From Clostridiales bacterium GWF2_38_85 (GTDB lineage: Bacteria; Bacillota; Clostridia; Oscillospirales; CAG-382), in contig MGOY01000001.1 of assembly GCA_001797275.1 (NCBI GenBank), positions 1-45,065 on the forward strand: 45,065 bases of DNA, in the 5' to 3' direction. Both the position numbers and the translations under genes were made by a program. Of this stretch, positions 3,163 through 24,252 are shown one piece after another. The notes under the pieces are model-generated. The model searched no databases. It was given only the letters and a program-made list of their open reading frames with translations, and had not been told where the DNA came from. Position 1 is the stretch's first letter; every line of letters begins with the position of its first letter.

Positions 3163-4251
3163 ATGAAGCTTAATTCGGTTTCGTTTTACAATTTCAGAAA
3201 CAACGACAACACAATTCTACCGTTTTCAGAAGATGTTAATGTTATTTACGGAAAAAATGCTGCCGGAAAGACCAATATCCTCGAAGCAGTGTTTTTTTTC
3301 GCTGCGGGCAAATCCTTCCGTTCATGTAAGGAACGTGATATGATTCGATTTACCGAGCAAGAAGCAAGAGTTGATGTTACTTTTTCTAATAAAGACGGAG
3401 CTCAATCACTATCTGTTAAACTGTCTAAAAAAGAAAAAAAAGAAATGTTCCGCAACAATATTCAAATTTCAAGACTTTCGGAATATCTTGGCCGATTTCG
3501 TGCTGTTGTCTTTACTCCTGATCATCTCTGTCTTGTCAAAGGCTCGCCTGAACGCAGGAGAAAATTTGTCGATATTGCCATCAGTCAGACGACTCCAAAG
3601 TATGTTGCGCTTCTTAACGAATACAATCGTGTTCTTCTTCAGAAAAATTCTTATCTGAAGTGTGAGGAATTCAAGAAAGATACTTTGATTGAAGTATATA
3701 ATGAAAGACTGGCCCATATAGGAGCACAAATAAGCATTCGCAGATATCATTATTTAACTCATATGAATAAATCCGCTGCCGATATATATAGTAATATGAC
3801 CTCCGGAAGAGAATCGCTTGGAATAAGATACGTTTCAAGTGTCTGTTCTTCAATCGATTCCGAAGAAGCTGCAAAACAGGCATATATGACTCTGTATCAG
3901 TCAAAGCTGACACTTGAAAAACGCTATGGAATGACAGTAGTCGGCGCTCACAAGGACGATTTCGATATTTCAATAAACAACAAAGATGCAAGGTTGTTTT
4001 GTTCCCAAGGACAACAGCGCAGTGCGGTTTTATCTCTTAAACTTTCCGAAGGTGAACTTTCAAAGCAGTTTACAGGCGAATATCCGGTATTTCTGCTTGA
4101 CGACATTCTCAGCGAGCTTGATTCTGAAAGAAAAGGCTTTATATTGCATAATCTTTTAGGAAAACAGGTCATAATTACCTCATGTGAGGATATACTTGAA
4201 TTTAACGGAAGAAAAATTCTTGTTGAGAACGGAAAATATAAAATAAATTGA
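3163..4251 (+). CDS. recF: DNA replication and repair protein RecF
   Basis: RecF is an SMC-like ATPase that helps load RecA onto gapped DNA at stalled forks. The 362 residues match the usual family length. Walker A is GKNAAGKT at residues 30-37, the ABC-type signature is CSQGQQRSAVLSLKLSEGE and Walker B is VFLLDDILSELD near the C-terminus. The start is fixed by an upstream in-frame stop; the ribosome site GGTGA sits very close to the ATG but pairs with the inner part of the anti-SD. It is the first gene after a strong promoter, 15 bases before miaB. The usual dnaA-dnaN-gyrB neighbours are not here. Confidence 0.97.
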   Translation: MKLNSVSFYNFRNNDNTILPFSEDVNVIYGKNAAGKTNILEAVFFFAAGKSFRSCKERDMIRFTEQEARVDVTFSNKDGAQSLSVKLSKKEKKEMFRNNIQISRLSEYLGRFRAVVFTPDHLCLVKGSPERRRKFVDIAISQTTPKYVALLNEYNRVLLQKNSYLKCEEFKKDTLIEVYNERLAHIGAQISIRRYHYLTHMNKSAADIYSNMTSGRESLGIRYVSSVCSSIDSEEAAKQAYMTLYQSKLTLEKRYGMTVVGAHKDDFDISINNKDARLFCSQGQQRSAVLSLKLSEGELSKQFTGEYPVFLLDDILSELDSERKGFILHNLLGKQVIITSCEDILEFNGRKILVENGKYKIN

Positions 4252-4266
4252 TCGGGAAAATACTTA

Positions 4267-5667
4267 ATGAATAATAAATACGACTTTTTATCAGATACAA
4301 CACAGAAAAAATATATAGAAACAGTTCGTAAGCTTCTTTCAGCAAATAATAAACGTCCCGTTGCTGCTATTGTTACCTTCGGTTGCCAACAAAATGAAGC
4401 TGACAGTGAACAAATTGCAGGTATTTGCAAGCTGATGGGTTATGAAGTAAATATAAACGAAACTGATTACGAAAACTCCGAATTGATAATACTCAACACA
4501 TGTGCAATAAGAGAACACGCTGAGCTGAAAGCTCTTTCCAACACCGGAAATTTGAAAAAGTTGAAAGAAAATAAAAAACACCTTCTTATTGGTATGTGCG
4601 GCTGTATGATTCAAGAGAAGCACCGCTTTGAACAAATAAAAAAGAGTTATCCATACGTTGACTTCATGTTCGGAACAGACAGTATTCCCAAATTGCCCGA
4701 ACTATTGTACAAATTGATGACCGAAAACAAAAGAGTATTTTTTGTAAACCATTTGCCGCATAATGAGCTTGGCATTATCCCAGAAAACATGCCTATAATA
4801 CGGAATTCTACTTATAGAGCATGGCTTTCGATTATGTATGGCTGCAACAATTTCTGTACTTATTGTGTTGTTCCGAGTGTAAGGGGGTATGAACGTTCGA
4901 GAAGTGAGCAGTCTATAATTGATGAAGTCAGGCAGCTTATTGAAAACGGTTACAAGGAAATAACTCTGCTCGGACAGAATGTAAACTCATATAATGGCGA
5001 GAATGGTAATGCTTTTCCGAGACTGCTCGAAAAAATTCTTGATGTAGACGGTGATTTCAGAATCAGATTTATGACCTCACATCCTAAGGATGCATCAGAT
5101 GCATTAATCGAAATAATGAATCATCCAAAAATGGCAAAGCATTTTCATCTTCCCTTCCAGGCTGGAAGCGACCGAATTCTTAAGCTGATGAACCGCAAAT
5201 ATACAAAGGAACAATATCTTGAAAGAGCCTTATCAATACGCGAAAGAGTCAAGGAATGTGCAGTCAGCACTGATATTATCTGCGGATTTCCGACCGAAAC
5301 ACCCGAAGAATTTGAAGAAACACTTGATGTAGTTAATAAAGTTAAATTCGATATGCTGTATTCATTCGCCTATTCTCCGCGTAAAGGTACACCGGCAGCA
5401 GCATTCGAAGATCAGATACCTCATGAAGAAAAAATAAGACGATTCAAGCTGCTTACAGACCTTTACGATACAGTTTCACATGAGCAGAATTTAAAATTGT
5501 TAGGTACTGTACAGCGTGTACTTTGTGACAGTAATGATATCGGCCGTAACAGTCAGAATAAAATAATCAAATTTACAGATTCTGAAAACAGAACAAAAAT
5601 CGGTGAATTTGCTGACATTAAAATCAAAGAAGTAACCAAGTATTCTATTACCGGAAACAGCCTTTAA
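4267..5667 (+). CDS. miaB: tRNA-2-methylthio-N6-dimethylallyladenosine synthase MiaB
   Basis: Radical-SAM methylthiotransferase that adds the 2-methylthio group to i6A37 of tRNAs reading U-starting codons. It has the expected order: an N-terminal UPF0004 domain with cluster ligands C40, C79 and C113; a radical SAM domain with CNNFCTYC (C193, C197, C200); and a C-terminal TRAM-like domain (GTVQRVLCD...). The 466 residues are normal for the long clostridial MiaB. It follows recF by 15 bases and precedes ylbF, a pairing common in Firmicutes. Confidence 0.97.
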   Translation: MNNKYDFLSDTTQKKYIETVRKLLSANNKRPVAAIVTFGCQQNEADSEQIAGICKLMGYEVNINETDYENSELIILNTCAIREHAELKALSNTGNLKKLKENKKHLLIGMCGCMIQEKHRFEQIKKSYPYVDFMFGTDSIPKLPELLYKLMTENKRVFFVNHLPHNELGIIPENMPIIRNSTYRAWLSIMYGCNNFCTYCVVPSVRGYERSRSEQSIIDEVRQLIENGYKEITLLGQNVNSYNGENGNAFPRLLEKILDVDGDFRIRFMTSHPKDASDALIEIMNHPKMAKHFHLPFQAGSDRILKLMNRKYTKEQYLERALSIRERVKECAVSTDIICGFPTETPEEFEETLDVVNKVKFDMLYSFAYSPRKGTPAAAFEDQIPHEEKIRRFKLLTDLYDTVSHEQNLKLLGTVQRVLCDSNDIGRNSQNKIIKFTDSENRTKIGEFADIKIKEVTKYSITGNSL

Positions 5668-15750: not shown

Positions 15751-15797
15751 CCAATTCTTTTTTAGTTTAATATTATAATAGTTTTGTGGGGGAATAT

Positions 15798-18335
15798 ATG
15801 AAAAAATTACTTTCGACTATATTAGTTGTTTTAATATCTATAACAGCAATATCATCCTGTAAACTTGCAAACAATGAAAGCAGTGCGGAAAGCGGCGACA
15901 CAAGTGTTAAAAACGAAAAAACAGATATTGACACTCTTTATACTGCAGAAGTTGACCGAAGCCTTGAAAAGCTGTCGGTAACGCAGGGCAAGAACTATAT
16001 TGTTACTGCGGCCGCTTCTGATATAGCTGAGCTTGCGGATGACGGTGAAAAGCTGACAGACGGAAAATTCAGCACAGTCTTTGATATTGACGACAGCTGG
16101 TCAGCCTTCAGTTATGTAAATGATATTGCCATAACTGTTGATCTTGGCGGTGTAGTTGATGGAATTTCGGATTTTGAGCTTGACATGCTCAGACATTTCA
16201 ACAAAAAAGCACATCTTGCCGATGAAATTAAAGTTGAAGTATCTGTCGATGGAATTGAATATACCGAAGTCGGAGTTATGAACAATATGTCCGGTGTAGG
16301 CAATTTAATGTCGCACAATTATTATCTAAAGCTTAACGGCGGAGTGTCTGCAAAATTTATTCGTTTTACACTGAGCTGCGAGCAGGAGGGAATAGCGATG
16401 ATTGATGAAATCGGAGCATTAAAATATCAAGGCGAAGCGGAACAACGCGAAATCGTTACCTACGAGCCATATTACAATGGAAAAATGCCCGAAAAGGTGA
16501 CAGAAGAGCTGTTCTGGAGTGAATCGGAGCCTGATTATGCCACAACACAAAACCTTGTCGCCGGGTTGATACCACAGACCTTTACTATGAGAACCGATAT
16601 CGACAGCGAATCCAATTCACCTGTTGAGGATTTATATAAATTAACAGACGGCAAATATGCAAACACCGCAAGCTATGCAGATCCGGCGCTGTTTTGGTCA
16701 GCACAGGCAAACAGAGCGACCGATGCAAGGTTGTTTGTGTTCGACCTCGGGAAAACCTCAACAATAACAAGCGCAAAAACAACCTTCTGTCATGTTTCAT
16801 CAGCCGGAGTTATTCTGCCTGAGAGCTACAGTGTTTATGCTTCTGAGGACGGAGTTGTCTGGGATGTTGTTTACCGCAGAGACGGAATCAGGGAATCAAA
16901 CAACCCCGACAACTCGCTTGTCAGCGTTGTCGCAGAGTTTGAGAAGCAGTATAAAGCACGTTTTGTTGCCGTTTTCTTTGATGTTGAAGGTCATACAAGG
17001 TTTGATGAAATCGAGGTGTTCGGAACAAAAGCAATCGCAGACAATGCTATCGCTGTTTCCGAGAACGGAGATACCAAGCTGCGTACCGGCGAATGGCCTA
17101 CAGCAGATGATCTTAATGGTGTGCATGACATACTACTTATGTTCCACTGTTATTCGAATACAATTGTTGATGGAGTTGCGCCTGCGGGCGGATTTGATGT
17201 TGACCATTTTCTGAAGCTGATGGCTTATTATGATAAAAATATGAAGATAACAGATACCATGTTCGACACTTTTCTATTTATCCCCGGCGGCGGCACTATG
17301 ACCTGGACAAATGCGGCTCGCTGGAAGGCTTATTATGAGAACCTGTTCAGCGAAGGTTATAATCTTGACGCAATGAATCAGGCTGCGGCGCAGGTTCAGG
17401 AAGCCTTGGGTGATGAAAACTATAAGGGGAAGGTTATGTTCCCAATATTTCTGGCAAGTAATCAATACACTCAGTTCGGAGACCTTGACGGTGACGGTAT
17501 TGACGAGAACTTCAACACGCTCGAGAATAAATCCAAGGCGATAAAATGGGTTATTGACGAATATCTGAGAAGATTCAACGAAGGTAATTATGAAAACCTT
17601 GAGGTTGTAGGCTTCTATTTTGAGAGCGAAACGATTGATTATACGGATGTCAACTGCCCTGCATCAATGAGATATGCGGCTGATTATGTGCATGAGCTTG
17701 GATATATGATAATGTCCTGCCCGTATTATATGTCGTCAGGCTACTATGATTTCTATAACCTCGGTTTCGATGCAGCATTCAAGCAGCCGAGCTATTATTT
17801 CTGGAACAATCAGCCTGAAGCTTTCCCCAGAACCTGCACAACTGCGAAATGGCTGGGCATGAGTACCGAGATGGAGGTTGAACCTGATGCAAATACAGAC
17901 AGTGCAGCGCTGGCGAAATACATTGAATACCTGAGAGCAGGCGTTGACTATGGGTATATGAATGCAACCCATATGTATTATTACAGCGTACCGTATTATC
18001 AGTCAATAAAGAGCGGGACAGCGAGAGGGCGTTTAATTTACGACCTCACTTACAAATTTATAAAGCACAAATTGATCTTCTCAACTGTCGAAAAGGACTA
18101 CGAAACAATATTCACAGGTCCGGCTGACACGAAAATCACCGGAAAAATTGAAGCTGACGGTATGTATCAGGATATCGGAAGCTCAACCAGATACGGCAAC
18201 ATTAAATTTGAACGCAACGGTAAATTCACCTATACTCCGAAGCCCGGGTTTGCCGGTGAAGATAGCTTCACTGTCATTGTCAACGACGGCGGCGAGGAGA
18301 AAACGCTGTATACAGTAAAGATTAAAGTGGAATAA
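15798..18335 (+). CDS. Large DUF4855 lipoprotein with discoidin-like N-terminal domains
   Basis: A secreted, lipid-anchored protein of 845 residues. The signal peptide ends in the lipobox ISSC (Cys 21 or so). Two beta-rich regions (about 45-210 and 250-405) resemble F5/8-type C (discoidin) carbohydrate-binding modules. The central region (about 440-760) matches DUF4855, a family with a glycosidase-like barrel: MFDTFLFIPGG, YENLFSEGYNLDAMNQA, FGDLDGDGIDENF and FDAAFKQPSYYFW. The C-terminal 80 residues form an Ig/cadherin-like domain ending in FTVIVNDGG. ATG 15798 is chosen because a GGGGGA site precedes it; an in-frame GTG 12 bases earlier is possible. A role in polysaccharide handling is inferred. 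Confidence 0.8.
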   Translation: MKKLLSTILVVLISITAISSCKLANNESSAESGDTSVKNEKTDIDTLYTAEVDRSLEKLSVTQGKNYIVTAAASDIAELADDGEKLTDGKFSTVFDIDDSWSAFSYVNDIAITVDLGGVVDGISDFELDMLRHFNKKAHLADEIKVEVSVDGIEYTEVGVMNNMSGVGNLMSHNYYLKLNGGVSAKFIRFTLSCEQEGIAMIDEIGALKYQGEAEQREIVTYEPYYNGKMPEKVTEELFWSESEPDYATTQNLVAGLIPQTFTMRTDIDSESNSPVEDLYKLTDGKYANTASYADPALFWSAQANRATDARLFVFDLGKTSTITSAKTTFCHVSSAGVILPESYSVYASEDGVVWDVVYRRDGIRESNNPDNSLVSVVAEFEKQYKARFVAVFFDVEGHTRFDEIEVFGTKAIADNAIAVSENGDTKLRTGEWPTADDLNGVHDILLMFHCYSNTIVDGVAPAGGFDVDHFLKLMAYYDKNMKITDTMFDTFLFIPGGGTMTWTNAARWKAYYENLFSEGYNLDAMNQAAAQVQEALGDENYKGKVMFPIFLASNQYTQFGDLDGDGIDENFNTLENKSKAIKWVIDEYLRRFNEGNYENLEVVGFYFESETIDYTDVNCPASMRYAADYVHELGYMIMSCPYYMSSGYYDFYNLGFDAAFKQPSYYFWNNQPEAFPRTCTTAKWLGMSTEMEVEPDANTDSAALAKYIEYLRAGVDYGYMNATHMYYYSVPYYQSIKSGTARGRLIYDLTYKFIKHKLIFSTVEKDYETIFTGPADTKITGKIEADGMYQDIGSSTRYGNIKFERNGKFTYTPKPGFAGEDSFTVIVNDGGEEKTLYTVKIKVE

Positions 18336-18377: not shown

Positions 18378-20334
18378 AATTTATAAACTCAATATTCCCG
18401 ATTTCAATTTTCTTGTCCTTGCAGTCGTCGCCGCCATAGAACAGCAGTTGAAAGCCGTCGACAGAATCAAGCGGAATGGTTTTGTCATTTGCTTTATTAT
18501 AGAGATACCTGACTGGGAACCTGATATAACCGCAACAGCTTCCGAAGTATTCAAGAGTGCCATCAAAGCTGAAGGGTACGGACTTCCAGCCGTCAGCTTC
18601 CTGTATATATGCCTTCATATCATAATTGTTCAGATCATCGGGCGTGTATGCGACATCATTCGAATACAATGTAAAGCTCAATCTGTTGAAATTTATCTCA
18701 TTCAAATCAACCCATATTTGAATCTGATTGCAGCCGCTTGCATCAACCGGCTGTTTTTTTGTGAAGCGATACAGCTGATAACAGCCGGAGCGTAATATCA
18801 TCGACAGCTTTCCGTCTTTCTCGGCTGTCAGATGATGTGCACCGTCACCCCGTTCAAAGGGCGGCCAGGTGTTGTAATCCTTGTTGTAAATCAGCTCGTT
18901 TCCGACACTGTATTCCGAAAAATCAAGGAAAGGAGTAGTTGTACCAGGGTTTATATCCAGATAGGGATCGATGTTTTCATAATCAGAGTTTTTAATGATC
19001 GTACTGACAATCGGTTCGCTGTTTTTACCGTAGCAATTGAATGCTGTAAGCCTTATATAATAAGGCTCTTTCTGAAAAGGTGAAAAGGGTTTCAATTTTC
19101 CAATGGCAAGCTGTTTTGTAATAACTTTAGCCATGTTTCTTCCGCTGTCTGCACGGAAAAAGTCGGAATATAGAGCGAATCGCTTCAATACACTGTTGTC
19201 ATCGGCAGAAATATATTCAATATAATATCCTTTAACCATATCTGCATCTTCTGCTGCGGTAAAGGTGATTTCATACATAGGAAGCACCGGATCGTTGTTT
19301 TTTATGCTTTCGGTAATACAGGCGTCAGCTGAAAATACAGGAGCTGTGCTGTTTTTAATACGTACATCGTTTCTGTATGGGAGCAGATGGCTTAAGTTAT
19401 CTTTTGGAGTAGGGATAAACCAAGGCTCTTTAATTGTTTTGTTGTTATAAAAATCAATTCTGTTCAGTCTTGTGTTTCCGTCGTTGTCAACCTCAACCAA
19501 CAATCCTTGCGAATACTCGTGCGCTTCCTTAGGCTCACTTCCTGAGGAGATATCGAGATAAGGAACGCCGTCCTCTGTTTCGGCTTCAATCGATGCAAAA
19601 TAAACCGAAGATGTGCAGATTGCAGTGAACTCGTTCTGCCAGATACTAAGCTCGTTCTGCAACGGGAAATGAAGATGCCCGCCGAAATATACTGTTCTGG
19701 GATGATTCATCAATATACTGTAAAGCTTCGATGATGCCCAATAACCGCCTGTTTCACCGCCGTAGTTGCTGCCGTAGCAGGTGCCGACGATCATTGGATG
19801 AGCGCATACAAAAATCGGGGTATTTTTTTCGCTGCTTTCAGCTTCTTTAATCTCATTTTCGAACCAAATCAAGTCTTTCTCATGAAAATCCACACCGCCC
19901 GAATATTTATAAGCGTTTAAAGCGATAAAGTGTACGCCGTTCACAACAGCATGATGATTGCAGGCTTCGATGTCTTCAGCCGTAGCTCCCTTGTAGGCAT
20001 AATCGCCAAAGATACGCTTAAAGTCGGGACCGACAGTGAGTGGTGCGCCGAGAAGCTCGTTGTTGTACAGATCATGGTTGCCGATTGAGAAAATCAGCTG
20101 AGTCTCCTTCAAGTCAAAGCATTCGGAGGTTATATCGTAGAATTCCTGAATCTGCTCCTCAAGTCCGAAGTCGGTTATGTCACCGACAAATAAAAAGGCA
20201 TCAGTATGTCCGAGACTCTTGGCTTTTTCATAGGCTTTGCGTAGCTTATGCGATGTAACACGGTCCTTCCCGATTATATGAAGATCGCTGATGACTAAAA
20301 AACGCAGTCTTATATCGTTGTTATTGAATTTCAT
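18376..20334 (-). CDS. Calcineurin-like metallophosphoesterase with C-terminal beta domains
   Basis: The N-terminal 280 residues carry the full phosphoesterase signature: SDLHIIG, VGDITD, GNHD, CAHPM and GGHLH, the ligands of a two-metal centre. The rest (about 330-650) is not catalytic: a fibronectin III-like segment (YEITFTAAEDADMVKGYYIEY) and a beta-rich C-terminal domain. No signal peptide is visible, so the protein may be cytoplasmic. I use ATG 20334, eight bases after AAGGA; ATGs at 20343 and further upstream are possible. A plausible minus-strand promoter (TTGCGC, 17, TATTAT) lies upstream. It is convergent with the DUF4855 lipoprotein gene and divergent from the MutS-like pair. Confidence 0.85.
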   Translation of the reverse strand: MKFNNNDIRLRFLVISDLHIIGKDRVTSHKLRKAYEKAKSLGHTDAFLFVGDITDFGLEEQIQEFYDITSECFDLKETQLIFSIGNHDLYNNELLGAPLTVGPDFKRIFGDYAYKGATAEDIEACNHHAVVNGVHFIALNAYKYSGGVDFHEKDLIWFENEIKEAESSEKNTPIFVCAHPMIVGTCYGSNYGGETGGYWASSKLYSILMNHPRTVYFGGHLHFPLQNELSIWQNEFTAICTSSVYFASIEAETEDGVPYLDISSGSEPKEAHEYSQGLLVEVDNDGNTRLNRIDFYNNKTIKEPWFIPTPKDNLSHLLPYRNDVRIKNSTAPVFSADACITESIKNNDPVLPMYEITFTAAEDADMVKGYYIEYISADDNSVLKRFALYSDFFRADSGRNMAKVITKQLAIGKLKPFSPFQKEPYYIRLTAFNCYGKNSEPIVSTIIKNSDYENIDPYLDINPGTTTPFLDFSEYSVGNELIYNKDYNTWPPFERGDGAHHLTAEKDGKLSMILRSGCYQLYRFTKKQPVDASGCNQIQIWVDLNEINFNRLSFTLYSNDVAYTPDDLNNYDMKAYIQEADGWKSVPFSFDGTLEYFGSCCGYIRFPVRYLYNKANDKTIPLDSVDGFQLLFYGGDDCKDKKIEIGNIEFIN

Positions 20335-20403
20335 ATGCTTCATCCTTATATTATATATTATGTATAATATCACAAACATCTAAATTGCGCAACTGATTTT
20401 TGC

Positions 20404-20432
20404 TTTACATCGTAAACACCTTGATATATAAT
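20404..20432 (+). promoter_or_regulatory. Sigma-A promoter of the MutS-like gene pair
   Basis: TTTACA at 20404-20409, 17 bases, then a perfect TATAAT at 20427-20432, about 60 bases before the first start codon. Confidence 0.65.
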
Positions 20433-20494
20433 AACATATGGAATTTAAAGTGATTCCTGACTGCAAGGATAATACATAAGAAGGATAGATTGAA

Positions 20495-22027
20495 ATGAAA
20501 TACGAGATTCTTTTTTCCTCTGAAAATGTGTATAAAAAATGGTATGACTCCAGCCGTACTAATGTCGATGTTATAAATAATGACATCAACCTTGATGCAG
20601 TTGCAGAGCAAGTTCTGAAGACAAGCAGCGGATTTCCTGTTCAGATCTTTTTATATCCCTGCAATGATATTAACACAACAAAGCTCAGAGCTGAAATTTT
20701 CAGAGAGCTTTACGAAAAGCCGTCTGTTTGTGAAAGTCTGAGAGAATATATACAGCAACTGATAAAGTTAAAAAAGCAAAAGCAGGATGAATTTAATTCA
20801 CCAAACCCGATACAAAAGCAGCAATACTTTCTTACCTCTGTATTATCATATATAAATTGCATCGAAAGGTTAGCTGAGATTATTTCAAGCCTGAAATCGA
20901 AGGCATTCGTATCACTTTATAATAAATTTAACACAATAATAACTTCACCGGAATACGGTAAAATGAAAATAAAAGCAGAAAATCTGTATGAGAGAGTTGA
21001 CAATTTACTTGGTATGTCACTGTCATTTGATATCAGAAATTCTGCTGTTGGTATAAGAGAAAACAAATCAGGAGTTATGGTCAGATTATCAGAACTGTAT
21101 GAAAACCTGATCGGTACAAAGCTGAACCCGGGTTTTTCGATTGTAAACAGCAATCCGATTTCTGCGCTTGAGGAAGATATAATAAATGTCTTAAAACTTC
21201 GTTCACCCGAAACCTTTGAAGAGTTGGCTGAATTCTATAATTTTTATGCCAAAATCAAATTCTTCGATATTATCGAACTGAAGGAACAATTGCATTTCTA
21301 TCTTGATTATATCGACTTTGTAAAGCAAATGCAGACTAAAGGCTTCCACTTCACCCTACCTGTATTTACCGATAACAACCTTAATGCTGTAAACGCATAT
21401 GACTTAAGTCTTGCGGTTAAGCTCAGTGATTCTGAAGCTATTGTTTCAAATGATATAAGCCTGAGCAAAGGCAATTTGTTTGTGCTGTCCGGCCCGAATC
21501 AGGGAGGGAAAACAACCTTTGTACGCAGCGTTGCACAGAATATAGTCCTTGCACAAAACGGATGCTTTGTTGCTGCGGAAAAATATGAAACACCTTATTT
21601 TGATATACTTCTTACCCATTTCAACCACTCCGAAACGCTTGGGCATGGCAGACTTGAGGAAGAGCTGGAACGGATCAGAGAGATGTTATCCCGACTGACA
21701 CCGGACACCTTTGTTCTATTCAACGAATGCTTTATGAGCACAAGACGAATCGACGGGGTTGAGCTTTCACTGAAGCTGTTTGATAAACTTTTTGAAATAG
21801 GATGCAGCGGTGGTTTTGTTACACATTATTACGAGATAGCAGAAAAGGATGAAAGATTACGCAGTTTTGTTGCAGGAGTGAAAACAGACGGCGACAAAGA
21901 TGATATAAGAACATATAAAATCTCAGAATGTCCGCCGAAATCAACAGCCTACGCAAGGAGTATTGCGGAAAAATGCGGAATCACCTTTGAAAGGTTACAG
22001 GAGTTAATCAACAATGAAAAAGCTTGA
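20495..22027 (+). CDS. MutS-family ATPase, first of a tandem pair
   Basis: 510 residues. The C-terminal 200 form the MutS domain V ATPase: Walker A GPNQGGKTT (333-341), then the ETLGHGRLEEELERIREML segment in place of the MutS D..fg.StF..E block, Walker B FVLFNE (406-411) and the FVTHYYEIAE block (441-450). The Walker B Asp is Asn (N410) while the catalytic Glu is kept. The N-terminal half is helical, like MutS domains III/IV (core and lever), and no mismatch-binding domain I with its Phe-x-Glu is present, so ordinary mismatch repair is unlikely. An AAGGA site precedes the ATG. It overlaps the next gene by 14 bases. True function unknown. Confidence 0.85.
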   Translation: MKYEILFSSENVYKKWYDSSRTNVDVINNDINLDAVAEQVLKTSSGFPVQIFLYPCNDINTTKLRAEIFRELYEKPSVCESLREYIQQLIKLKKQKQDEFNSPNPIQKQQYFLTSVLSYINCIERLAEIISSLKSKAFVSLYNKFNTIITSPEYGKMKIKAENLYERVDNLLGMSLSFDIRNSAVGIRENKSGVMVRLSELYENLIGTKLNPGFSIVNSNPISALEEDIINVLKLRSPETFEELAEFYNFYAKIKFFDIIELKEQLHFYLDYIDFVKQMQTKGFHFTLPVFTDNNLNAVNAYDLSLAVKLSDSEAIVSNDISLSKGNLFVLSGPNQGGKTTFVRSVAQNIVLAQNGCFVAAEKYETPYFDILLTHFNHSETLGHGRLEEELERIREMLSRLTPDTFVLFNECFMSTRRIDGVELSLKLFDKLFEIGCSGGFVTHYYEIAEKDERLRSFVAGVKTDGDKDDIRTYKISECPPKSTAYARSIAEKCGITFERLQELINNEKA

Positions 22028-23474
22028 TTTTTTGTTATTGGATGAAAGAATCAATACCAGCAGTCGTATTTTAGAGGATTTCTGTTTCCAAAATATAAAA
22101 GAAACTATTTTCCCGGGCGAAGATGAGCTGTATAATAATTTTTGTGATGTACTAATGCATCCATCGTATGACATTAACACTTTGCAGAAAAGACAACTAA
22201 TTTTCAGCGATTTCTGTGAATACAGTCATCTTACCGAACAAATATACTCGATTTGCAGCAAAGCAGAGGATTTTAAAATATATACTCAGGTTTCTTTATA
22301 TCGCAGTATGTCGCCACAGGAACGATTGAAAAATTATATTGAGCAGACAATACCGTTAATCATTGAAATGGATAATCTGGCATTACTGTTCAAACACAAG
22401 AGCTTTAAGTCAGAAATTCTAAGAAAGCTTAAGTTCGAATCGGTGACACCACTTATTGAAGAAATCCGTGCATTGGGGAAAGTAATCAATACACAATGTT
22501 ATGAATTGAAGGTGAATTTCAGTGAGGGATTTAAACTCAGGACTGCTGAAATTGTAAACACCGAGAAAGTATCAATTCAATTTAAAACAAAAGACAGTAA
22601 AAACCCTGTAAAATACGATGAAAATAATATTTACTTTTATGGGTTCAGCATGACTGGGTTCGTAGCCGAAGAACTTTACAAAACATCGATTCAAAATTTG
22701 TGTTCGATTGTTTCGCAAATAAACAGTGCTATTCTCGAAATTTTCAGAGAATTGAAAAAAGCAGCGGGATTTTTTATTGCTGCAATGAAAATAATGTATT
22801 ACCTTGATACAATAAGGTTTCCATATTGCATTCCGGAGTTATCTGACGACATTAGCTTCGGCATCGAAGCGAAAGGTCTGTATGATCTAAGCCTTACAGC
22901 ATACGAGCATGAAGGTAATATTACGGTCAACAGCTTTGATTGCACCGAGAGCAACATATTGATTGTAACCGGATTGAACAGCGGAGGGAAAACAACCTTT
23001 CTTCGCAGTGTAGGAATAGCGCAGTTGTTTGCTCAGGCAGGATTGTTTGTGCCGGCGGAGCATTACAAATGCAGTTGTTTTTGCGGGATTCTGACTCATT
23101 TTCCCACCGAAGAAGACAGCAAAATGGATTTCGGAAAGTTGGCTGATGAGCTGACAAGGCTAAGAAAGGATTTTCCGATTATTACCCGCGGAGGTCTTGC
23201 GTTGTTTAATGAATCCTTTTCAACCACAACAACCAGAGAGGGTGCAGAAATTGCAGTTGATGTTCTTCGTGCGTTATCACAAACCGACGCAACAGTAATT
23301 TTTGTTACACATCTGTATGAGCTTGCAGCAAATATCGACAAGCTAAACAGCTGTCTTTGCAACGGTATAAAAGCTGTCAGCATGGTGACCGAATACAAGG
23401 AGAACGGCACCCGTACATATAAAATTATAAAAGGTCAGCCGATTGAAGATCTTCACGCAACAGAGTTGTTTTAG
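22014..23474 (+). CDS. MutS-family ATPase, second of a tandem pair
   Basis: 486 residues, a distant paralogue of the preceding protein. The ATPase domain has Walker A GLNSGGKTT (320-328), the DFGKLADELTRLRKDF segment, Walker B LALFNESF (395-402) with the same Asp-to-Asn change, and FVTHLYELA (430-438). The N-terminal part (1-270) is helical with no recognisable mismatch-sensing domain. The ATG lies within the last codons of the upstream gene, giving translational coupling and probably equal amounts of both proteins. I infer that they form a heterodimer like eukaryotic MutS homologues; this is not proven. Confidence 0.85.
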   Translation: MKKLDFLLLDERINTSSRILEDFCFQNIKETIFPGEDELYNNFCDVLMHPSYDINTLQKRQLIFSDFCEYSHLTEQIYSICSKAEDFKIYTQVSLYRSMSPQERLKNYIEQTIPLIIEMDNLALLFKHKSFKSEILRKLKFESVTPLIEEIRALGKVINTQCYELKVNFSEGFKLRTAEIVNTEKVSIQFKTKDSKNPVKYDENNIYFYGFSMTGFVAEELYKTSIQNLCSIVSQINSAILEIFRELKKAAGFFIAAMKIMYYLDTIRFPYCIPELSDDISFGIEAKGLYDLSLTAYEHEGNITVNSFDCTESNILIVTGLNSGGKTTFLRSVGIAQLFAQAGLFVPAEHYKCSCFCGILTHFPTEEDSKMDFGKLADELTRLRKDFPIITRGGLALFNESFSTTTTREGAEIAVDVLRALSQTDATVIFVTHLYELAANIDKLNSCLCNGIKAVSMVTEYKENGTRTYKIIKGQPIEDLHATELF

Positions 23475-23676
23475 TATTGTTGTTTTATATAACCTTAAAG
23501 ATAAAAGATTATGATAACAGTTTATTTTTTCACTAATATATAGTATAATAAAGACAACACAAGAATATATAGAGATTTTATTTGATTAGCTTTTAAAAAA
23601 TGCTTCGCATTTTCAGATATTTAGCTTTTATTTATAGTACAATATATAATACAAATTATAGAAAAGGATAAAAGAT

Positions 23677-24252
23677 ATGAGTAAAATCAAATGGAAACCG
23701 GGAACGTTGCTTGCACCGGTACCACCGGTAATGGTCAGCTGCGGCAGTCTGGAACAACCGAATGTTCTGACGATAGCATGGGCAGGTATTCTCAACAGCG
23801 ATCCGCCGAAAACATATATATCTATCCGCCCGTCAAGATATTCTTATGAAATCATAAAATCAAGCGGCGAATTTGTTATCAACCTGACAACAACCGCTCT
23901 TGTCCGAACAGCAGATTATTGCGGTGTAAAAACCGGCAAAAATACCGACAAGTTTTCGGAATGCAAACTGACTGCAGAAAGGTCGTTTGAAGTTTCAGCG
24001 CCATCTATTGCTGAAAGTCCGGTTTCGATTGAGTGCAGAGTTTGCGAAATCGTTCCGCTGGGAACCCATGATATGTTTATTGCTGATATTATCGCAGTTT
24101 CAATCGATGATCAGTATATTGATAAAACCAACAAGCTGCACCTTGAAAAATGCGGACTTGTTGCTTATGCACACGGTGAGTATTATGCTCTCGGCAAACA
24201 GTTGGGAAGCTTCGGTTTTTCAGTAAAAAAGAAGTCAACTAAGAAGAAATAG
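23677..24252 (+). CDS. Flavin reductase-like (flavoredoxin) protein
   Basis: 191 residues of the flavin reductase/flavoredoxin fold, binding FMN. Family features are the opening KPGTLLAPVPPVMVSCG, the NVLTIAWAGI strand with conserved Trp, the SIRPSRYSYE block and FVINLTT. AAAAGGA precedes the ATG. The upstream gap contains a small hairpin, AAAATGC/GCATTTT, near 23600. The basic tail KKKSTKKK is unusual but not unique. The physiological electron partner is unknown. Confidence 0.88.
   Translation: MSKIKWKPGTLLAPVPPVMVSCGSLEQPNVLTIAWAGILNSDPPKTYISIRPSRYSYEIIKSSGEFVINLTTTALVRTADYCGVKTGKNTDKFSECKLTAERSFEVSAPSIAESPVSIECRVCEIVPLGTHDMFIADIIAVSIDDQYIDKTNKLHLEKCGLVAYAHGEYYALGKQLGSFGFSVKKKSTKKK

Follow-up and report, generated by a model that had tools for sequence, protein, structure and literature searches.

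MutS proteins described from bacteria, MutS1 and MutS2, are homodimers, and many MutS subfamilies of prokaryotes that lack domains I and II are uncharacterised (excerpts of PMC12292046). In E. coli MutS, residues 693–696 hold Mg2+-bound waters, and their substitution abolishes the ATPase and inactivates repair; PDB 3k0s represents the D693N protein (excerpts of PMC3848065). In a third context, Weinberg et al. (2010) reported 'mutS' downstream of the crcB motif among what they termed DNA repair genes (accessible part of PMC2864571). Here we describe two adjacent genes, A and B, that encode MutS-like ATPases in a 45,065-nt stretch of Clostridiales bacterium GWF2_38_85 (contig MGOY01000001.1; the whole stretch is hereafter called the window). 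With a probability of roughly 0.55, we read A and B (20495–23474) as an obligate heterodimeric ATP switch that acts outside mismatch repair and represents an uncharacterised branch of the MutS superfamily.

Architecture and ancestry of the two proteins

Proteins A and B were 32% identical across 238 columns (E 1e-31), and both belong to the MutS superfamily, carrying a MutS_V domain (Pfam; 67 and 68 bits, respectively; cut-off 30.2) on a MutS core fold. Their P-loops read GPNQGGKT and GLNSGGKT, and their Walker B motifs VLFNE and ALFNE, respectively, in agreement with the MutS-type P-loop and shared LFNE of the original prediction, which had been made from the DNA letters. The absence of a recognisable domain I, also claimed there, was borne out: Pfam at E up to 10 matched no domain I in either window protein and the structure models contained none, with domain II likewise absent. 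Across the family, at E 0.01, none of 86 A proteins and none of 85 B proteins matched the Pfam MutS_I, II, or IV domains. Pfam, searched at E up to 10, gave no Smr domain in the window proteins, which end soon past domain V.

AlphaFold single-chain models, built on alignments holding 82 sequences of A and 81 of B, had mean predicted local distance difference test (pLDDT) values of 90.6 and 89.7, respectively. Against solved structures, residues 10–504 of A aligned to approximately residues 258–789 of E. coli MutS, and residues 10–486 of B to approximately 261–777; as modelled, domains I and II are missing from both proteins and domains III–V remain. The best structural matches, tied with other MutS chains, were 8omo_A for A (Z 30.2, root-mean-square deviation (rmsd) 3.8, 384 aligned residues) and 8rz8_A for B (Z 30.5, rmsd 9.1, 415 aligned). 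The site at which a clamp is expected was short and modelled with low confidence (A ~173–222 and B ~183–212), and by its position this segment would be the clamp.

None of the three families compared here accommodated the pair. MutS2 (TIGR01069; PDB 7vuf and 7vuk) resembles it in having domains III–V and a dimer-forming fold, but is encoded by one gene, has Asp-Glu (4/4 loci read) and Smr, and forms a clade separate from the pair; A and B scored 40.3 and 63.4 bits, respectively, against a cut-off of 400. MutS1 (TIGR01070) shares the core and ATPase fold and the P-loop, but has domains I and II, which window A and B lack (81.4 and 56.6 bits; cut-off 641.7). KamC, the lysine 5,6-aminomutase reactivase ATPase (NF052383), is a MutS-fold ATPase of ~510 aa that its NCBIfam name places outside DNA repair; it was the best NCBIfam match of B, with 72.1 bits (63.2 for A; cut-off 300). 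Membership of the KamC/KamB reactivases was rejected on the basis of these scores, the Asp-Glu Walker B motif of KamC, and its grouping with MutS2 in the trees. No NCBIfam model covered the proteins tried: window A and B and six further family members reached at most 95 bits against the MutS1, MutS2, and KamC models (cut-offs 300–642). Since the same genome holds a separate MutS1-type frame (860 aa) and a MutS2-type frame (792 aa), the pair is additional to the standard MutS set.

In a tree of 63 C-terminal halves, A formed one clade (98/96), B formed one clade except for a single protein (L058), and A, B, and their single-gene relatives were split from MutS1, MutS2, and KamC at 100/100; KamC was one clade (100/99) beside MutS2 and apart from the pair. 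A second tree of 56 rows gave the same split, again at 100/100, with support of 93/88 for A and 95/92 for B. Both trees thus place the pair outside MutS1 and MutS2; placement inside either would have refuted the original prediction. A and B were united against the Asp-bearing single-gene proteins at 96/91 in the 63-row tree. A and B are thus old paralogues that travelled as a pair.

A quick tree of 87 joined A+B rows, supported by the Shimodaira-Hasegawa-like approximate likelihood ratio test only, resolved four clades: a fluoride clade (50 rows; support 100), a Lachnospiraceae-type clade (25), a window-type clade (8), and a Paenibacillaceae-type clade (4). The window falls in the 8-row set of Clostridia (99), outside the fluoride clade. 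Its branch includes L056 (36 and 38% identity for A and B, respectively) and L035 (31 and 31%). The pair in the other searched genome of the window's genus (L038) was just 25 and 25% identical to that of the window, a distance suggestive of exchange or rapid divergence.

From the comparison with MutS2, the most likely target is a bulky nucleic-acid or ribonucleoprotein structure, including the ribosome, as for the MutS2 core, at slightly less than even odds. Two narrower readings are sub-cases of it, and their odds overlap with it. The DNA clamp of the original prediction, sensing branched DNA and controlling recombination, would have the architecture of the MutS2 core, to which A matched well (7vuk_B, Z 28.1, rmsd 4.1, 372 residues), and MutS2, with neither domain I nor domain II, is able to hold Holliday junctions or D-loops (excerpts of PMC12292046). 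In 4 of the 25 Lachnospiraceae-type loci, moreover, a phage-integrase-family gene is found at a distance of three to six genes. This gene is non-adjacent and confined to one clade, however, and no other recombination gene recurred among the neighbour clusters, so that the recombination control proposed in the original prediction found little support. The pair also has no attached nuclease domain, in contrast to MutS2 with Smr, its window proteins are acidic (isoelectric points 5.4 and 5.3; weak evidence), and a DNA clamp would leave the fluoride link described below unexplained; we therefore consider it unlikely. Less probable still is a MutS2-like translation factor acting on stalled ribosomes: MutS2 on collided ribosomes matched A (7qv3_w, Z 27.3, rmsd 4.3, 369 aligned) and B (7qv3_v, Z 25.6, rmsd 8.5, 393 aligned), but the match is confined to the shared core, the Smr part is absent, and MutS2 is a distinct clade.

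Pairing across genomes, plasmids, and phages

Contigs from 84,980 species, each represented by one genome, were scanned using seven A proteins as queries; gene B played no part in the search. This yielded at least 588 candidate stretches, of which 316 were confirmed and the best 80, ranked by similarity to window A, were kept. B followed A in 79 of these 80 best loci, the exception being L124; in L095, the B frame was interrupted. According to record titles, the hosts of the best loci included members of Bacillota, Actinomycetota, Chloroflexi, Acidobacteria, and Proteobacteria, two archaeal metagenome-assembled genomes, and others.

A similar picture came from 348 genomes sampled evenly across the window's phylum. 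At E 1e-60 or better, 24 of them matched A; 15 genomes held 16 A genes scoring above 560 bits, 15 of which had an adjacent B, and the sixteenth (G345) runs to the contig end. Lower-scoring pairs were present in the window genome and three others (G124, G197, and G302). One gene alone was thus rare in both counts, as expected from the mutual dependence that the original prediction had supposed. The search of the window's family covered 63 genomes; pairs occurred in G000, G062, and G025, another (G005) was cut by the contig end, and ten further genomes whose loci were read carried single-gene relatives only. The window shows both traits of the paired Asn-Glu family, namely adjacent A and B genes and Asn in both Walker B motifs. 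A start codon allowed a 4-nt overlap between the genes in 73 of 87 pairs (1/8 in the window type).

Two side observations concern unpaired or damaged copies. Relatives of the window genome carry a group of short single-gene MutS-like proteins (433–561 aa) with Asp-Glu (L036 and L039–L049). In G124, a MutS-like gene interrupted by a stop lies beside a fragment-like second gene (L160:3441-5759), and this genome has two other MutS-like sets.

Plasmid records matching the family numbered 54, and all five of the regions opened (5/5) were pairs. Genes annotated as 'DNA mismatch repair protein MutS' on plasmids of Klebsiella, Citrobacter, Enterobacter, and Rhodococcus matched the family and are probably not mismatch repair proteins. 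A search of viral_contigs with P0001 returned no relative, and a phage collection gave nine distant matching records, none of which spanned 80% of the query. One of them (MT837116.1), a 7.7-kb human faecal 'Bacteriophage sp.' record, matched P0001 in two places, one of which (3596-4777) showed 27.6% identity over 79%; this record may represent a bacterial contig filed in error or a pair carried by a phage.

A compact, sporadically distributed operon of two ATPases, with changing neighbours and plasmid presence, would also suit an anti-phage defence pair, a role that the original prediction had offered. PADLOC, however, gave no match above 22.7 bits, nearly all matches lay in the P-loop region, and no specific model was satisfied; no defence gene was found among the recurrent neighbours checked, and the main clade carries a riboswitch. 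Defence is accordingly the least credible of the readings considered here, and we regard it as highly improbable.

ATPase sites and fluoride riboswitches

Among the aligned pairs, position 410 of A was Asn in 86/86 and position 399 of B was Asn in 85/85. Glu followed in all 86 A proteins and in 84 of the 85 B proteins, the single exception being Asp in L057. The shared Asn-Glu that the original prediction had singled out in the window is therefore a fixed trait of the family. Asp-Glu was kept in 12/12 single-gene relatives (L036 and L039–L049), in 20/20 KamC loci, and in the 18 MutS1/MutS2 loci read. Further single-gene proteins read comprised five with Asp-Glu and two (L124 and L165) with Asn-Glu and no partner. 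These last two (L124:3322-5067 and L165:3796-5523) scored nearly equally to A and to B, with no partner within the stretch, and may resemble the state preceding the A/B duplication.

By motif, the pair shows the same Asp-to-Asn Walker B change as E. coli MutS D693N (PDB 3k0s). The latter is a laboratory mutant, and in E. coli MutS such changes cost ATPase and repair (excerpts of PMC3848065), whereas in 85 pairs both subunits carry Asn as a fixed residue. The family thus offers a natural test of a MutS machine whose Walker B Asp is naturally Asn. Because neither subunit has the Mg2+-coordinating Asp, hydrolysis would be slow or its metal tuning different, and the pair would act as a timed switch instead of a fast motor.

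A second residue distinguishes the clades. The switch-loop His of A was replaced by Phe in 49/49 rows of the fluoride clade and kept in 37/37 rows of the other three clades, and that of B was kept in 85/85. The two sites are therefore unequal in the fluoride clade, where one site probably hydrolyses, as only B keeps the His. Window A lacks the Phe trait, and both window subunits have His.

From the architecture, gene pairing, and shared ancestry seen in the sequences, we infer that A and B would be the two subunits of an obligate heterodimer, each reduced to a core, a small clamp/lever part, and an ATPase domain. As domains I and II are absent, no mismatch sensing would be expected. ATP binding would close the two levers around the target, and release would be slow. 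The family would then be a prokaryotic MutS heterodimer, as opposed to the homodimeric MutS1 and MutS2 of bacteria (excerpts of PMC12292046).

The strongest functional lead is stress physiology, because the largest clade carries fluoride riboswitches. In each of the five plasmid loci, Rfam detected such riboswitches (RF01734); in L053 and L054, one stands immediately upstream of the pair. We then used a covariance model (R1; 5 base pairs), trained on 12 sequences from the five plasmid loci and run over 90 sources, with matches accepted at E up to 1 for 1.3 Mb, some of them weak (down to 18.6 bits). The riboswitch lay less than 600 nt upstream of A on A's strand in 28 of the 87 pairs and elsewhere in the locus in 10, and it was absent from the remaining 49. 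All 38 riboswitch-bearing pairs belonged to the one clade of 50, which spans many phyla, compared with 0/37 in the other clades; when R1's five training loci were excluded, the ratios were 33/45 and 0/37, respectively. In 50 pair-free loci (51 control loci, 0.32 Mb), R1 returned two matches, both weak (16.0 and 15.6 bits); it also recovered the Rfam-confirmed riboswitch of the window genome in L156 at 30 bits. The fluoride-clade loci beyond the five plasmid ones and 13 Lachnospiraceae-type loci were scanned by R1 only; Rfam found no fluoride riboswitch above the gathering score in 8/8 window-type, 4/4 Paenibacillaceae-type, and 12 of the 25 Lachnospiraceae-type loci.

The Rfam model was also run on the 24 matching phylum genomes. 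In 10 of the 16 high-scoring pairs, a riboswitch preceded the matched start of A by 64–411 nt (G182 at 33.5 bits, slightly below the cut-off of 34), and in three it lay 1.4–1.7 kb upstream on the same strand (G299 at 28.4 bits, below the cut-off); the other three (G320, G325, and G345) had none nearby. Genomes with high-scoring pairs had a riboswitch in 14/15 cases, against 127/333 of the others (E 0.001; Fisher p 2e-5, uncorrected for relatedness). From the position of the riboswitch, the fluoride-clade pair would be induced by fluoride, and the pair is a candidate part of the fluoride response.

Neighbouring genes in the fluoride clade were clustered, with identities resting on one member per cluster. 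Among the 50 loci, the most recurrent clusters were enolase (13), phosphoglycerate mutase (9), dynamin-like GTPase (9), and CrcB (8), followed by ABC transporter ATPase (7), MFS transporter (7), DUF190 (6), and a hydrogenase/NADH dehydrogenase-type subunit (6). The dynamin-family GTPase genes are exemplified by L125:13741-15450. On the Klebsiella plasmid, the pair faces genes for a P-type ATPase, crcB, bPGM, eno, USP, and a DHHA2 protein. This set resembles the E. cloacae FRM operon, which confers fluoride resistance as established by knockout and complementation; MutS is not mentioned in the accessible part of that report (PMC5533749).

This fluoride island makes enzyme reactivation the main rival to a nucleic-acid target. 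The pair would be a KamC-like MutS-fold ATPase that reworks an inhibited protein; in one variant, the fluoride clade would free metal enzymes, such as enolase or pyrophosphatase, from Mg-fluoride dead ends and the window branch would serve another client. The match of B to KamC (72 bits; cut-off 300), the enolase, phosphoglycerate mutase, and CrcB neighbours, and the likeness of the Klebsiella genes to a fluoride-resistance operon (PMC5533749, in part) all point this way. KamC, however, keeps the Asp of Asp-Glu and clusters with MutS2 rather than with the pair, no client gene recurs beside window-type pairs, and neighbours in a stress island are not necessarily clients; reactivation in general, and the enolase or pyrophosphatase variant in particular, both remain doubtful in our judgement. 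Equally speculative is a wider proposal of a prokaryote-wide heterodimeric MutS machine for fluoride/magnesium stress, for instance remodelling or releasing Mg-fluoride-trapped enzymes or complexes, from which the gut Clostridia branch including the window would have moved to another use. Both ATP sites of such a machine would be built with the change that disables ordinary MutS.

The 'mutS' reported downstream of the crcB motif is very probably the main clade of this family, given that 38/50 of its pairs have a fluoride riboswitch in the locus. The link between 'mutS' and the fluoride riboswitch is thus not new, having been printed in 2010 (PMC2864571); pairing, missing domains, and Asn-Glu are not mentioned in the accessible part of that paper, and we found no paper in the literature that explains the link. 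The window pair differs from the crcB-motif 'mutS' in belonging to another branch and lacking the riboswitch. In the accessible part of a 2024 review of fluoride resistance, neither MutS nor DNA repair occurs (PMC11139923). Among the papers listed in our literature searches, none dealt with the pair, the Asn-Glu trait, or the non-fluoride branches; since many uncharacterised subfamilies lacking domains I and II exist (PMC12292046, in part), the pair may already be one of those numbered in published MutS subfamily schemes. Overall, the original prediction was partly supported: none of its three refuting conditions came true, its suggestion of defence was not supported and that of recombination control had little support, and it missed the fluoride riboswitch of the largest clade.

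The window branch and its locus

The features of the locus are listed in Table 1. The two overlapping reading frames and the promoter lie on the forward strand as originally described, and A and B are likely translationally coupled through their overlap. With a threshold of 9/12 consensus positions, a scan of 20200–23800 returned 16 promoter-like sites, compared with 12.0 +/- 2.7 in shuffled sequences, and the listed promoter was the top-scoring one.

Table 1. Features of the gene pair and its upstream region in the window
Feature	Position	Strand	Remarks
Promoter, sigma-70-like, TTTACA-17-TATAAT	20404..20432	+	11/12 consensus positions
Probable ribosome-binding site of gene A, aagaagga	20478..20485	+	direct sequence reading
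Gene A, MutS-like ATPase, 510 aa, domains III-V only (as modelled)	20495..22027	+	Walker B Asn410-Glu411; switch-loop His444
14-nt overlap of the A and B reading frames	22014..22027	+	
Gene B, MutS-like ATPase paralogous to A, 486 aa, domains III-V only (as modelled)	22014..23474	+	Walker B Asn399-Glu400; switch-loop His433

We rejected control by fluoride for the window pair, as neither Rfam nor R1 found RF01734 anywhere in the window, and Rfam found no riboswitch between the promoter and gene A. The only fluoride riboswitch match of the window genome was located on another contig (C4:4788-4860), before a sodium/hydrogen exchanger gene (L156:4788-6093). With His in both sites and an ordinary promoter-like site, the window branch would most likely perform the same biochemical task without fluoride control, within a family whose role would be stress-linked and whose main clade is under fluoride riboswitches.

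Several results weigh against the heterodimeric, stress-linked switch. The case for the heterodimer comes from gene pairing, the models being of single chains. Two single-gene Asn-Glu proteins exist (L124 and L165), and Asn is therefore not strictly partner-dependent. The union of all Asn proteins was neither found nor rejected in the 56-row tree (approximately unbiased test, p 0.535). Regarding the fluoride link, 12 of the 50 fluoride-clade loci had no riboswitch in the stretch examined, and the window's own branch had none in its eight loci (0/8). With neither a riboswitch nor a telling recurrent neighbour in the window branch, its physiological role is extrapolated.

Among the gene clusters of the Lachnospiraceae-, window-, and Paenibacillaceae-type loci, no neighbour was consistently adjacent to the pair, and no cluster was shared among the four Paenibacillaceae-type loci. 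Window-type clusters (ABC ATPase, HAD-type phosphatase, and a gyrase/topoisomerase subunit) each occurred in at most 2/8 loci, none of them adjacent. Clusters present in at least 4 of the 25 Lachnospiraceae-type loci were an ABC transporter ATPase (6), the phage-integrase-family gene (4; L068:8250-9314 and three more loci), and a penicillinase-repressor-type regulator (4), each identified from one member. In the window, the pair is flanked by genes for two AraC-type regulators, a metallophosphoesterase, and a flavin reductase-like protein; upstream, 15786–18335 encodes a large protein in which DUF4855, F5/8-type C, and Ig-like domains were recognised.

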